A stretch of 64,000 bases of DNA. Origin: Hellea sp. (GTDB taxonomy: Bacteria > Pseudomonadota > Alphaproteobacteria > Caulobacterales > Maricaulaceae). Position 1 is the stretch's first letter. Every line of letters starts with the position of its first letter. The notes under the pieces are model-generated. The model was not told where the DNA came from, made no database searches, and worked only from the letters and a program-made list of their open reading frames with translations. Position numbers and translations under genes: made by a program. The stretch spans positions 1 through 64,000 of the forward strand of contig JAOIVW010000003.1 of assembly GCA_028224375.1 (NCBI GenBank). The letters are read 5' to 3'. Of the stretch, positions 47,749 through 51,603 are shown one piece after another.

Positions 47749-48512
47749 AGTCTTATCTCTATACCGCGAGCTTTGAGGTCGCGTTTTAAATCGGGTATGG
47801 CAATGACGGATTTGTGGAAGACACTGGCCGCTAAAGCGCCGTCAACATTAGCTTGCTTGAATACATCCTCAAAATGTTCTGTCGCGCCTGCGCCGCCAGA
47901 GGCTATTAAAGGCACAGCGCAAACTTCACGAACGGCTGATAACTGTTTGATATCATAGCCTTTTCTGACGCCGTCTTGGTTCATGCAATTAAGAACGATT
48001 TCACCTGCGCCGCGCTCGGCAGCTTCGGCCGCCCAATCTAATGTCTTACGGCCCGTCTCGCGGGTTTTGTCAGGATCGCCCGTATGGGATTTGACGCGGT
48101 AAGTGCCGTTTTCTTCAAATGTATCAATCCCGACAACCACGCATTGGCGGCCATAGGCGTCGCAAAGCTCATTGATGAGTTCAGGCCGCGCAAGGGCCGG
48201 CGAATTGATACTGATTTTATCAGCCCCTGAGGCCAAACGTGCGCCCGCCGCTTCGACAGTTTTAATCCCGCCTGCCACGCTAAAGGGAATATCGATAGAG
48301 CGCGAAACCTTGCTGACCCAATCCGGGCTAACCGTGCGGTCATCGACTGAAGCCGTGATGTCATAAAACACAAGCTCATCCGCACCTTCAGCCGCATAGC
48401 GCAGAGCCAAATCGACAATACCGCCAACATCTTCATGATTACGAAATTGCACGCCTTTGACGACGCGCCCATCTCGTACATCAAGGCAGGGTATGATGCG
48501 CCGCGCTAGCAC
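47745..48512 (-). CDS. hisF: Imidazole glycerol phosphate synthase, cyclase subunit
   Basis: 255 residues, TIM barrel. With HisH it makes imidazole glycerol phosphate and AICAR. Catalytic Asp lie in [14 protein letters not shown] (D11) and [13 protein letters not shown] (D130 region); phosphate-binding loops are [12 protein letters not shown] and [12 protein letters not shown]. It overlaps hisA by 7 bases upstream and hisIE by 4 downstream. Confidence 0.98.
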
Positions 48513-49231
48513 GCGATAGCTTCTTCTAATGTAAAGCGCTCTTCATAGAGGGCTTTGCCGATGATAACGCCGTGAGGTTTTAGGGCTTTGAGCTCGGTGA
48601 CGTGGTCAAGTGTCCCTACGCCGCCTGAGGTAATAAGATTGAGCGTCGGGTAATTTATCATAATTTGCTTATAGAGATCGACGTTAGAGCCGCCTTCAAC
48701 ACCGTCTCGGCCAATATCGGTGACTAAAATTGTTTTAAGGCCCGTGCCCATGTAATCGTCCAATACATGCCATAGTGTACGTTCTCCGGCTTCCGTCCAA
48801 CCGCGTGTGGCGGGATAGGGCTCTCCGTTCTCGCCGATATTCACATCTAGAGCGACGCAGATATGTTCCTGTCCAACTTCAGATATCCAGAACTTGACCA
48901 TTTGCGGGTTTGTCACAGCGAGCGAGCCTATGACCGCGCGGTTAACTCCGCCGCTGAGTAAGCGCTGTATTTGGGAAAGTTCGCGCAATCCGCCGCCCGT
49001 TTGTACCTTCAGGCCGCTATTTTTAGCGATTTCAATAATGAGGTCAGCTTGCTCCGTCTTGCCATGCTTAGCTCCATCAAGATCGACAATATGCATCCAT
49101 TCTGCGCCTGCCGCGGCGTAGCTCTTGGCAACCTCCAAAGGAGACACCGCATAATCGGTACGCTGATTAAAATCACCTTTATAGAGTCGGACACAGCCGC
49201 CATCCATCAGGTCTATTGCAGGGTAAATCAT
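48506..49231 (-). CDS. hisA: Phosphoribosylformimino-5-aminoimidazole carboxamide ribotide isomerase
   Basis: 241 residues, TIM barrel paralogue of HisF. Opens with [20 protein letters not shown] (catalytic Asp8), [37 protein letters not shown] (second catalytic Asp) and [12 protein letters not shown]. The only intergenic gap in the operon (132 bases, holding a palindromic repeat) precedes it; its likely Shine-Dalgarno, AAGGA 9 bases before the ATG, is partly made by the repeat's end. Confidence 0.97.
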
Positions 49232-49240
49232 CTTAGCCGT

Positions 49241-49356
49241 CCTTCGAGTCCACGAGGCTATGCCTCGTCCTCAGGATGAGGTGTATATATAAATTAGAGA
49301 ACTCCTCACCCTGAGGAGTTTTTTGTTTCCAATGGAAACAAATGACGTCTCGAAGG
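49241..49356. repeat. Nested palindromic intergenic element inside the his operon
   Basis: 116 bases bounded by inverted CCTTCGAG (49241-49248) and CTCGAAGG (49349-49356). Inside are four more dyads: ACGAGGC/GCCTCGT (49252-49268), CCTCA/TGAGG (49269-49281), ACTCCTCA/TGAGGAGT followed by a T-run on the plus strand (49301-49324), and GTTTCC/GGAAAC (49325-49339). This matches the CCTCAG..TGAGG-rich mobile palindromic repeats scattered through alphaproteobacterial genomes. The last dyad with T-run is in the wrong orientation to stop his transcription. Confidence 0.78.
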
Positions 49357-49363
49357 GTCGAAG

Positions 49364-49963
49364 TCATGCGGGAACCTTTAAAAAATTCTCTAATATCTTT
49401 GCGCCAACACGACTGCTGCGTTCAGGGTGGAATTGACACCCATAGACATTCTTATGCCTCACGATAGCTGAGAACTTCTCGCCATATTCAGATGAGGCGA
49501 GTGTGATATTGGAGACAGGCGCAGCAAAGCTATGCACGAAATAGGCATAATCATTATCATTTATGCCTTCGAGCAAGATGTCATCGCTCCGCTTGGTGAG
49601 CGTGTTCCAGCCCATATGCGGTGACGGTTGGTTTTTGGTATCCAGCTCTGTTATTGTACCAGGCACGAGGCCGAGGCCTTTAACAGGCGAACCGCCTTCT
49701 TCCAATGTTTCAAAAATCAACTGCATGCCCAAACATATTCCCATGACGGGTTGGGTCAGGCTTTGAAGAACAGGGGTGAGGCCTTTGGCGTTTATGCGCT
49801 TCATGGCGTAAGGTGCTGCGCCCACACCCGGCAAGATAACCCGCTCTGCTTGGGTAATCGTCTCGGCATTATCAGAGATAGTCGCATCCACGCCCAGACG
49901 GTCAAAGGCAAATTTGACGGAGGATAAGTTAGCGACGCCTGTATCGACGATAACGAGGGACAT
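49364..49963 (-). CDS. hisH: Imidazole glycerol phosphate synthase, glutamine amidotransferase subunit
   Basis: 199 residues, class I glutaminase. Opens MSLVIVDTGVANLSSVKFAF; the nucleophile Cys is in PVMGICLGMQLIFE, and the His-Glu pair is in GCQFHPERSSRVGAKIL. It supplies ammonia to HisF. Start overlaps the hisCB stop by 1 base. Its stop is followed 8 bases later by the palindromic element before hisA. Confidence 0.97.
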   Translation of the reverse strand: MSLVIVDTGVANLSSVKFAFDRLGVDATISDNAETITQAERVILPGVGAAPYAMKRINAKGLTPVLQSLTQPVMGICLGMQLIFETLEEGGSPVKGLGLVPGTITELDTKNQPSPHMGWNTLTKRSDDILLEGINDNDYAYFVHSFAAPVSNITLASSEYGEKFSAIVRHKNVYGCQFHPERSSRVGAKILENFLKVPA

Positions 49964-51603
49964 TAGATAACGCCCTTAGTAGACGCAATATCCGTTCCGC
50001 TTCTTGCAAAGGCAGGACGCAAGGCGCGCGCGACGCCTTTGAAACTGGCTTCAATCATGTGGTGCGTATTCTCGCCTTCAACATCGATTTGGATGGCCGC
50101 GCCTAGCGTTTGCGCTAGGCTTTCGAAAACATGCGGGCACATTTCAGCCGGGAACTCACCAACATGGTCAGTTGGGAATGTGCCTTTAAAGGTCATGGCT
50201 GGACGACCCGACAGGTCTATCGCAACCCGCGCCTGGGTTTCGTCCATGGGCATCACAAAACCAAAACGGCCTATGCCCGCTTTGTCGCCAAGGGCTTCTT
50301 TCAACGCTGTCCCTAGAGCGAGGGCGCAATCTTCGACCGTGTGGTGGGCGTCAATTTCCAAATCACCCTTACAGGTCAAAACCAAGCCAAAGTCGCCATG
50401 CTTTGCGAGCGCTTCGAGCATGTGATCGTAAAAGCCAATCCCAGTGTCGCTTTTAATCATGCTGGCATCGTCTAAATTCACGCGCACGGATATATCTGTT
50501 TCTTTCGTCGTGCGGTGAACTTCGCCGATACGGTCAGGGCGTTTATCTTCCACGCCAACGCCAAAGGCTTGGAGCGCAATGGTATTCTCTTCGGGCGAGC
50601 CGATTGAGATGCGCATATGTCCTGTTGTACTGCGGTAATCACGAATTTTTACCTGACGCCGCGCAAGTTCCCGCATCAAGGCCTCATCATCTTTGACGTC
50701 AATAAGAAGGAAATTCGCGTCAGACGGCCAAACTTTTGCGATGAAAGGTGATGATTGAAGCTCTGTGAACATACGCTCGCGTTCAGACAGCCATTCATCT
50801 AATCGCGCGGCATGGGTGCTCATGGCGGCAGGCGACAGCGCCGAAAGAATAGCCTTCTCAACAGGCCGCGCAATCGGGTAGGGCGGTAGGACTTTCAGCA
50901 TCAGACTAATCACGCGCGGATCAGCAATCGCCACGCCGCCGCGCACTCCCGCGAGAGAATAGGCTTTGGACAATGTGCGCATGACAATCAGGTTTTGATA
51001 CCTTGATATTTTCGGGATGTAGCTGGGCATTGACGAAAACTCTTCATAAGCTTCGTCAACGACAATGAGCGTATTGGGGCAAGTCTCGCAAAGCTGCTCA
51101 ACTAAATCATCATTGATAACTGTGCCTGTGGGATTATTGGGTGTGCAGAGGAAAATGACTTTTAAGTTCCTGGCTGTCTTGGCTCTTCTCAAAACGGCTA
51201 CCGTATCCCATTGGTAATCTTTTGTCAGCGGAACGTCGATAATGCCCGCGCCCTGAATCTGCGCGCAAGTTTTATAATATCCAAATGTCGGCGAACAGAT
51301 GAGGATATTGTCTTGTCCGTCTTCACAGAACGTCCGCAGTAAAACTTCAATCGCTTCATCCGCGCCGCGACCGACCATAAGATTTTCAGCCGCAGTGCCA
51401 TAAAGGTCAGCCAAACGTTGCGTCAGGGCAGGTGGTTGTTGTTCGGGGTAACGGTTATAACCTTCCGCGCCTTTGACAGGCGGCGGCGCATAAGGGCTCT
51501 CATTGGCGTCTAAGTGCAGCGAACCTGTCGAGCCGCCGCGTGCAGAATAAGCCGCGAAATCGACAATGGCTTTTCTTGCAATGTTTTCGGGCCAATTTGA
51601 CAT
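49963..51603 (-). CDS. hisC-hisB: HisC-HisB fusion: histidinol-phosphate aminotransferase + imidazoleglycerol-phosphate dehydratase
   Basis: 546 residues in one uninterrupted frame. HisC (about 1-350): HLDANESPYAPPP, CTPNNPTGTVI, VDEAYEEF, the PLP Lys in RTLSKAYSLAGVRGG (about 214), GHMRISIGSPEEN. HisB dehydratase (about 358-546): HRTTKETDISVRVNLDD, TGIGFYDHMLEALAKHGDF, IDAHHTVEDCALALG (metal site), PMDETQARVAIDLSGRP, NTHHMIEASFKGVARALR (second metal site). The histidinol-phosphate phosphatase domain that precedes this dehydratase in gammaproteobacterial HisB is missing at the joint, so that activity must come from elsewhere. Overlaps hisD and hisH by 1 base each. Confidence 0.95.
   Translation of the reverse strand: MSNWPENIARKAIVDFAAYSARGGSTGSLHLDANESPYAPPPVKGAEGYNRYPEQQPPALTQRLADLYGTAAENLMVGRGADEAIEVLLRTFCEDGQDNILICSPTFGYYKTCAQIQGAGIIDVPLTKDYQWDTVAVLRRAKTARNLKVIFLCTPNNPTGTVINDDLVEQLCETCPNTLIVVDEAYEEFSSMPSYIPKISRYQNLIVMRTLSKAYSLAGVRGGVAIADPRVISLMLKVLPPYPIARPVEKAILSALSPAAMSTHAARLDEWLSERERMFTELQSSPFIAKVWPSDANFLLIDVKDDEALMRELARRQVKIRDYRSTTGHMRISIGSPEENTIALQAFGVGVEDKRPDRIGEVHRTTKETDISVRVNLDDASMIKSDTGIGFYDHMLEALAKHGDFGLVLTCKGDLEIDAHHTVEDCALALGTALKEALGDKAGIGRFGFVMPMDETQARVAIDLSGRPAMTFKGTFPTDHVGEFPAEMCPHVFESLAQTLGAAIQIDVEGENTHHMIEASFKGVARALRPAFARSGTDIASTKGVI

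Follow-up and report, generated by a model that had tools for sequence, protein, structure and literature searches.

In the window, the 64,000-nt stretch of DNA analyzed here, a mobile palindromic repeat has entered the his operon at the exact ATGA overlap by which relatives join hisH to hisA, and a repeated junction has left both genes whole. The account that we favor, with moderate confidence, is that a non-autonomous REPIN-like element landed on this stop/start overlap and that translational coupling was kept through a frame bridging the element and a Shine-Dalgarno (SD) sequence exposed by ribosomes; movement of the element by a GIY-YIG nuclease is a less certain part of this account. The initial annotation had described an inserted repeat that now serves hisA, a core reading that proved partly right but overlooked the 44-codon frame (ORF44) linking hisH to hisA.

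Insertion at the hisH-hisA overlap

The window belongs to contig C23 (175 kb) of a draft genome, hereafter G000 (3.03 Mb in 69 contigs, 88.96% complete), and its hisA is 81-90% identical to that of four named Hellea records (Hellea balneolensis, 89%), which probably places the genome in or near Hellea. On the minus strand the operon reads hisG, hisD, a fused hisC-hisB frame, hisH, hisA, hisF and hisIE. The names of hisH (49364-49963; PF00117, 2.5e-22) and hisA (48506-49231, ATG at 49231-49229; PF00977, 7.5e-69) are backed by Pfam, and the remaining names come from reading the translations, as does the apparent fusion of hisC and hisB in one 546-codon frame at 49963-51603. An Rfam scan of the window returned four tRNAs and nothing else.

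We compared the hisH-hisA junction across relatives (of 61 genomes, 39 had a hisA match at threshold, counting the window's own; 30 loci retrieved, the window among them). The element is absent from all 29 relatives, in which the codon matching hisA residue 1 in the alignment lies -4 to +16 nt from the hisH stop, the real hisA start of several more distant relatives lying at least one codon upstream of the aligned codon. The distance is exactly -4, the ATGA overlap, in 14 of the 29, including all six same-genus genomes with a hisA match; three same-genus genomes gave no match. Among 14 named loci, several of which are genomes already counted in the 29, ATGA stands at the aligned hisA start in 13 and 9 nt upstream of it in one. 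Because the relatives' hisA ATG lies within or beside the hisH stop, termination-reinitiation, rather than initiation from a separate upstream site, is most likely the ancestral mode of hisH-hisA translation.

The window junction reads CCCGC-ATGA-[132 bp]-ATGA-TTTACC. By this comparison, the 132 bp between the two ATGA copies (49232-49363, minus strand) are an insertion at the exact hisH/hisA overlap of the relatives. The first copy (49364-49367, minus strand) carries the hisH stop TGA (49366-49364) and the ATG overlapping it, now the start of ORF44, and the second (49228-49231, minus strand) is the hisA start codon; with ATGA at either side of the insert, both the hisH stop and the hisA start were kept. 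The insertion was seen in one assembly alone.

Anatomy of the element

Genome search, folding, dyads and a half-unit scan together define a two-arm palindromic element in what we call A-B form. The palindrome occupies 49241-49356, the 116 bases that the initial annotation reported, but the inserted DNA extends beyond it by 9 and 7 nt at its two sides. The termini are exact 8-bp inverse complements, CCTTCGAG (49241-49248) and CTCGAAGG (49349-49356), and four more dyads lie within the element (arms of 7, 9, 17 and 19 nt, 79-100% complementary), in agreement with the terminal inverted repeats and four dyads first noted. The minus-strand RNA of 49232-49363 is predicted to fold at -58.2 kcal/mol (z = -8.3), a stability reached by 0 of 200 dinucleotide shuffles; the plus-strand fold has z = -7.4.

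Half-unit A (49241-49281, minus strand; half-unit scan and stem covariation) consists of CCTCATCCTGAGG, a hairpin and GGACTCGAAGG, and is also written CCTCAYCCTGAGG, hairpin, GGACTCGAAGG. Half-unit B (49304-49356, plus strand; half-unit scan) consists of CCTCACCCTGAGGAG, a hairpin and GTCTCGAAGG, also written CCTCAYCCTGAGGAG, hairpin, GTCTCGAAGG; it is 84% identical to a half-unit adjoining a GIY-YIG gene on contig C69 of the same genome. An A+T-rich linker (49282-49303) joins the two. The variable hairpin covaries among 12 A units (39 nt each) taken from two Hellea genomes: double-change cells number 12, where shuffles give 2.8 and 0 of 500 reach this count, and pairs with a double change number four against 1.8 (6 of 500 as high). 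Half-unit A contains GACTC (49246-49250, minus strand), an instance of GANTC, the recognition site of CcrM-type methylases; this site is present in 11 of 12 related A units from the two Hellea genomes and missing at the ends of many copies from other genera. The sense strand also holds a 9-bp terminator-like hairpin with a poor T tail (49300-49320, minus strand). Such hairpins are not enriched (four found, 3.1 expected from shuffles), and with a count near shuffle level and a poor T tail the terminator reading is weak.

Second insertion between cysD and cysN

Another A-B element (C8:3010-3114) lies between cysD and cysN (NCBIfam names) of G000. In the cysD-cysN comparison (a match in nine of ten genomes searched, eight loci read), all eight relatives have the two genes element-free and overlapping, as TAATG in seven and TGATG in one. 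The C8 insert has TCTAATGGC on either side, and its bridging frame, 51 codons long, starts at the first ATG and ends in the second TAATG. The insert ends with a good SD, GGGAGG, whose anti-SD duplex is -10.3 kcal/mol; the native SD that it displaced, at -7.7, was good as well, so cysD/cysN had no need of an SD from the element. Read against the empty sites of relatives, one genome holds two insertions at gene overlaps, giving a before-and-after view of a mobile repeat that twice entered an overlapping gene pair with neither gene broken.

Empty-site comparison gives duplications of 4 bp at hisH-hisA and 9 bp at cysD-cysN. We found no fixed target duplication abutting the terminal repeats: at least four identical bases occur there in only 2 of 65 related elements (68 loci minus three chance-like coding matches; loci L175-L178 lie outside the set). 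One of the two is the C8 copy, in which GCGT abuts both terminal repeats; the window's own copy has two identical bases.

Copies across genomes and inside proteins

The two inverted half-units of the window element belong to a repeat family that pattern and profile searches place in many Alphaproteobacteria. A search of its own genome with the element recovered, besides the window copy, 11 partial matches at E<=1, none of them spanning more than half of that copy, and a fuzzy scan of the retrieved loci found at least 21 half-units at at least 11 places, the window included (a lower bound, 11 of 41 places having no locus of their own). Homologous elements, whose count the initial annotation had proposed, thus stand at at least 10 other places, and these copies, the empty sites in relatives and the duplicated junction bear out its description of a mobile repeat. 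The half-units follow A-B order in the window and at C8 and B-A order at C12, C37, C50, C4 and C3:18 kb; pairs of B units lie at C3:23.7 kb and C3:92.7 kb, and further half-units at the start of C10 and around the C69 gene. No clean empty site was obtained for the C12 copy. Across the taxonomic family, the A-B pattern CCTTCGAG-N82..112-CTCGAAGG occurs in 32 of 137 genomes, with 0 throughout for the reversed control; some of these matches are chance coding hits (3 of 68 loci examined).

Family members also lie inside proteins. In H. balneolensis (G006), an in-frame A-B element (L240:1960-2081, on G006:C1) codes for ESVLRDAAVAAPQDEE...PHPEEGAKATVSKD in the interdomain linker of PdhB, the lipoyl-bearing pyruvate dehydrogenase E1 beta (named from its translation). 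Five relatives carry a different PdhB linker, the gene being present in six of eight genomes searched but not in the window's. The same element peptide, with the motif LRD..PQxEE..SKD, appears in proteins at C3:23.7 kb, C3:92.7 kb and the start of C10 in G000.

Several side observations concern these copies. The loci at C3:23.7 kb, the end of C3 and the start of C10 (L242, L243 and L244) encode three related proteins with at least one in-frame element peptide (PHPEE repeats). The window's genome and H. balneolensis both have B-A elements downstream of one and the same gene, which we take to be hslU (L248 and L238), suggesting an old shared insertion. Genome G012 has 22 A-B matches (L150, L179-L192), and its mobile unit is longer, since the similarity between copies runs well past the CCTTCGAG ends.

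Bridging frame and ribosome binding site

ORF44 crosses the element in 44 codons (49233-49367, minus strand; stop TAA at 49235-49233) and would encode MTSTLRDVICFHWKQKTPQGEEFSNLYIHLILRTRHSLVDSKDG. Its end reads TAAGATG, which places the stop 1 nt short of the hisA ATG. Among 5000 dinucleotide shuffles, a first stop this near hisA occurred in 4.0% and a frame open for at least 40 codons in 16%; at hisH-hisA alone, chance may explain ORF44. The frame is the one used by the element peptide in other proteins (TLRD, PQGEE, DSKD). Given bridging ORFs at both hisH-hisA and cysD-cysN and in-frame copies within proteins, we infer that ORF44 is translated and that, by way of this frame, hisH-hisA translation probably stayed coupled after the insertion.

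The SD candidate for hisA, AAGGA (49240-49244, minus strand), forms the end of the terminal repeat, 8 nt short of the ATG. Paired with a generic anti-SD, it reaches at best -7.2 kcal/mol, compared with +0.3, +0.3, -2.4 and +0.3 kcal/mol at the hisA starts of four Hellea relatives; the anti-SD word occurs once in the genome, by word match irrespective of rRNA context. AAAGG precedes the ORF44 ATG, with a duplex of -3.8 kcal/mol. The element-derived SD proposed at the outset is well spaced and has the best duplex of the hisA sites compared, but in free mRNA it is predicted to be buried: in the folding model AAGGA is wholly paired (unpaired 0.00), its partner being CCUUCGAG at 8-15 nt downstream of the hisH stop, and opening the region from SD to ATG costs 8.6 kcal/mol, against 3.6-5.8 at four native junctions.

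Ribosome position changes this prediction. When a ribosome occupies the hisH stop, the model leaves the SD unpaired at 0.64 (opening 5.6 kcal/mol) and the hisA ATG mostly paired (unpaired 0.15), more so than in free mRNA. A ribosome at ORF44 codons 20-25 keeps the SD shut (0.00-0.01), and one at codon 40 frees it entirely (1.00, 0.4 kcal/mol). In the mechanism that we propose, ribosomes ending hisH would restart at the overlapping ATG of ORF44, traverse the element while melting its hairpins, and finish next to the hisA start, which would release AAGGA from its pairing with CCUUCGAG. Through restart, read-through and a freed AAGGA, hisH-hisA coupling would be kept in altered form.

A role for the family at large as SD donor was not supported. 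Over 58 element ends, six starts lie at 4-13 nt and eight at 14-23 nt, with counts of 3, 5, 1 and 1 farther out; as starts are not concentrated at SD distance, SD supply appears to be a trait of the hisH-hisA site and not of the family.

GIY-YIG genes beside the repeats

On C69 of G000, a small GIY-YIG gene is enclosed by two half-units (PF01541, 3.4e-10; 40.5 bits against a curated cut-off of 22.6), and in G006 another GIY-YIG gene lies between half-units with other neighbors. A Pfam search across 59 genomes of the family supplied 50 GIY-YIG loci other than uvrC, a non-random sample made up of 30 retrieved loci and 20 further top-listed places, with a substitute for one near a contig end. A strict scan for a CGTC-REP or window repeat within 400 nt was positive at 21 of the 50, and on both sides at 15. 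The same scan gave 0 of 28 for hisA controls, whose flanks are coding, and 0 of 18 for uvrC, which shares the Pfam domain (Fisher p = 2.5e-5 and 6e-4, respectively). A looser inverted-repeat score exceeded z = 4 at 17 of the first 30 GIY-YIG loci versus 0 of 28 hisA controls; the strict scan missed repeats in several loci that this score rated strong, and we kept the strict counts.

The type of repeat follows the phylogeny of the genes. In a tree of 45 proteins (from 52 GIY-YIG entries, with L259, L264, L283, L284, L289, L292 and L298 left out), the eight genes flanked by the window repeat, two of which were found through the repeats themselves, form one clade (98/95), and the window-repeat label changes once against 7.6 times when shuffled (0 of 500). 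The 14 genes flanked by CGTC REPs do not form one clade, with four label changes against 12.3 shuffled (0 of 500), and 23 genes on the tree have neither repeat. A profile of the first clade matches the UPF0213 structures 1zg2 and 1ywl; among NCBIfam models, none was passed by any of its eight members.

Both profiles carried the association to the class. The first-clade profile matched in 31 of 289 genomes, and among 30 of its loci, one of them C69, the window repeat lies within 400 nt in 18 and on both sides in 10, the other 12 being without a matching repeat; 36 units stand near the gene versus one in 60,224 bases of far flank. This fuzzy scan also accepted a few variants ending TGTCGAAGG, and for seven loci the layout of the locus served to place the gene. 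A second-group profile, built from 12 proteins (11 CGTC-flanked and L271), matched in 82 of 289 genomes. Among 29 of its loci, not counting the genome of the window itself, a CGTC/TGTC-REP stands within 400 nt in 25 and on both sides in 18, with 68 units near the gene versus about 5 expected (9 in 42,496 bases of far flanks).

GIY-YIG nucleases may thus be candidate mobilizing enzymes for both the window family and the CGTC REPs, a less certain step than those at the his operon; small GIY-YIG nucleases, whose genes often lie between the half-units, would move the window family. CGTC REPs are mostly alphaproteobacterial and, according to Di Nocera 2013 (PMC3733652), apparently lack a dedicated transposase, so that a candidate enzyme is here named for them. 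If true, GIY-YIG-driven REP movement would be a second solution, unrelated to the RAYT tyrosine transposases. A broader reading, which we hold tentatively and at slightly less than even confidence, makes small stand-alone GIY-YIG nucleases dedicated mobilizers of alphaproteobacterial palindromic repeats, CGTC REPs included, with nuclease groups paired to repeat types and frame-bearing repeats leaving coupling ORFs behind; because such repeats carry a reading frame, they could land inside genes or on stop/start overlaps. The hisH-hisA and cysD-cysN insertions offer a testable coupling mechanism, and the GIY-YIG idea could be tested with one protein and a short DNA. We found no link between CGTC REPs and GIY-YIG among the matches listed for open-licence literature, in which the one paper joining GIY-YIG with extragenic palindromes is on an unrelated topic.

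A third GIY-YIG clade, of YILRCADGTLYTGITN type, has flanking repeats in 0 of 6 tree members (L250, L251, L252, L255, L256 and L261), as expected of a non-mobile gene.

Alternative explanations

The repeat might have been passively tolerated, the duplicated junction saving both genes, hisA starting from AAGGA alone and ORF44 being an accident. The frequency of open frames in shuffles and the well-spaced AAGGA, with the best duplex among the hisA sites compared, would agree with this; we nevertheless consider it unlikely, as AAGGA is predicted to be fully paired unless ribosomes act, both copies at gene overlaps are bridged by a frame, one that also occurs within proteins. The initial annotation had also suggested that the hairpins set hisG-hisH apart from hisA-hisIE in expression, which could come about if a REP beside the stop stalled ribosomes or stabilized the upstream mRNA. 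REPs located no more than 15 nt from a stop codon reportedly cause ribosome stalling and trans-translation (work cited in PMC5082802), CCUUCGAG starts 8 nt past the hisH stop, and a terminator-like hairpin lies in the sense strand. Such an action seems very unlikely to us, however, since terminator-like matches occur at shuffle frequency with a poor T tail and the downstream pathway genes still have to be made.

That a repeat copy was misjoined into the his operon during assembly is scarcely credible. The genome is a draft, and its assembly may break at C3 and C10, as C10 opens inside repeats and a further one lies about 650 nt short of the end of C3; yet no other match is long enough to supply over half of the window copy, this copy lies inside a 175-kb contig, and the insert edges repeat the target, likewise at the second site. 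For the mobilization step only, a Y1/RAYT or DDE transposase acting in trans would be a rival to the GIY-YIG nucleases, whose genes would then be passengers or targets. In favor of this rival, target duplications are typical of DDE enzymes. REPINs, which are REP doublets, have RAYTs as their partners in other bacteria (PMC3116915). We find this rival improbable: a search of G000 (88.96% complete), covering Y1 only, gave 0 matches to Y1_Tnp (PF01797), repeat type tracks the GIY-YIG group, and uvrC, with the same domain, lacks the repeats in all 18 loci.

Comparison with known systems

The window element shares with the REPIN/REPtron arrangement (PMC3116915, PMC3733652) two inverted palindromic half-units with a spacer that form a larger hairpin, a location between or within genes, and a small nuclease-type gene between repeats. 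It differs in that the enzyme there is a RAYT (Y1), whereas G000 has no PF01797 match and the neighbor is a GIY-YIG nuclease, in that its half-units have two hairpins and a CTCGAAGG end, and in copy number, which is high for REPINs, whereas few copies were found here. CGTC REPs (PMC3733652) likewise form doublets and insert within genes, are mostly found in the same class, and have GIY-YIG neighbors in common with the window family; the window half-unit, however, is without their CGTC-AT-stem-CCA layout, its B units having CGTC before TCGAAGG and no CCA-tailed stem.

CIR elements of Caulobacter and Brucella, compared by description only (via PMC2229807 and PMC10969869; Chen and Shapiro 2003 being the source), are also alphaproteobacterial, about 110 bp long, built of two arms and a linker, and equipped with GANTC. 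Their ends do not pair with each other, the arms being independent, whereas the window element has an 8-bp terminal stem; their GANTC lies at the terminal loop and that of the window element at the arm base, beside the terminal stem; and CIR elements are strictly intergenic, whereas the window family has copies within coding frames. Terminal inverted repeats are a trait shared with MITEs, but the 5'-TA-3' ends of MITEs are absent, the window family ending in CCTTCGAG/CTCGAAGG with variable flanks; the Chunjie MITE of Geobacter ranks among the closest systems on the basis of its title. Br-REP1/2 of Bradyrhizobium were rejected as the same repeat, their sequences being different. By title and opening of the abstract, none of the literature containing the repeat's own letters concerned repeats, apart from Brucella tandem-repeat typing, and in the open-licence literature we found none joining miniature inverted elements, target duplication, translational coupling and overlapping operon genes.

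Rickettsia palindromic elements (RPE), likened here by their description, insert in frame and add a peptide to proteins. The same trait, an open frame inserted in frame, is found in PdhB of G006 and in the C3 and C10 proteins of G000; the window family differs in that it also bridges overlapping operon genes.
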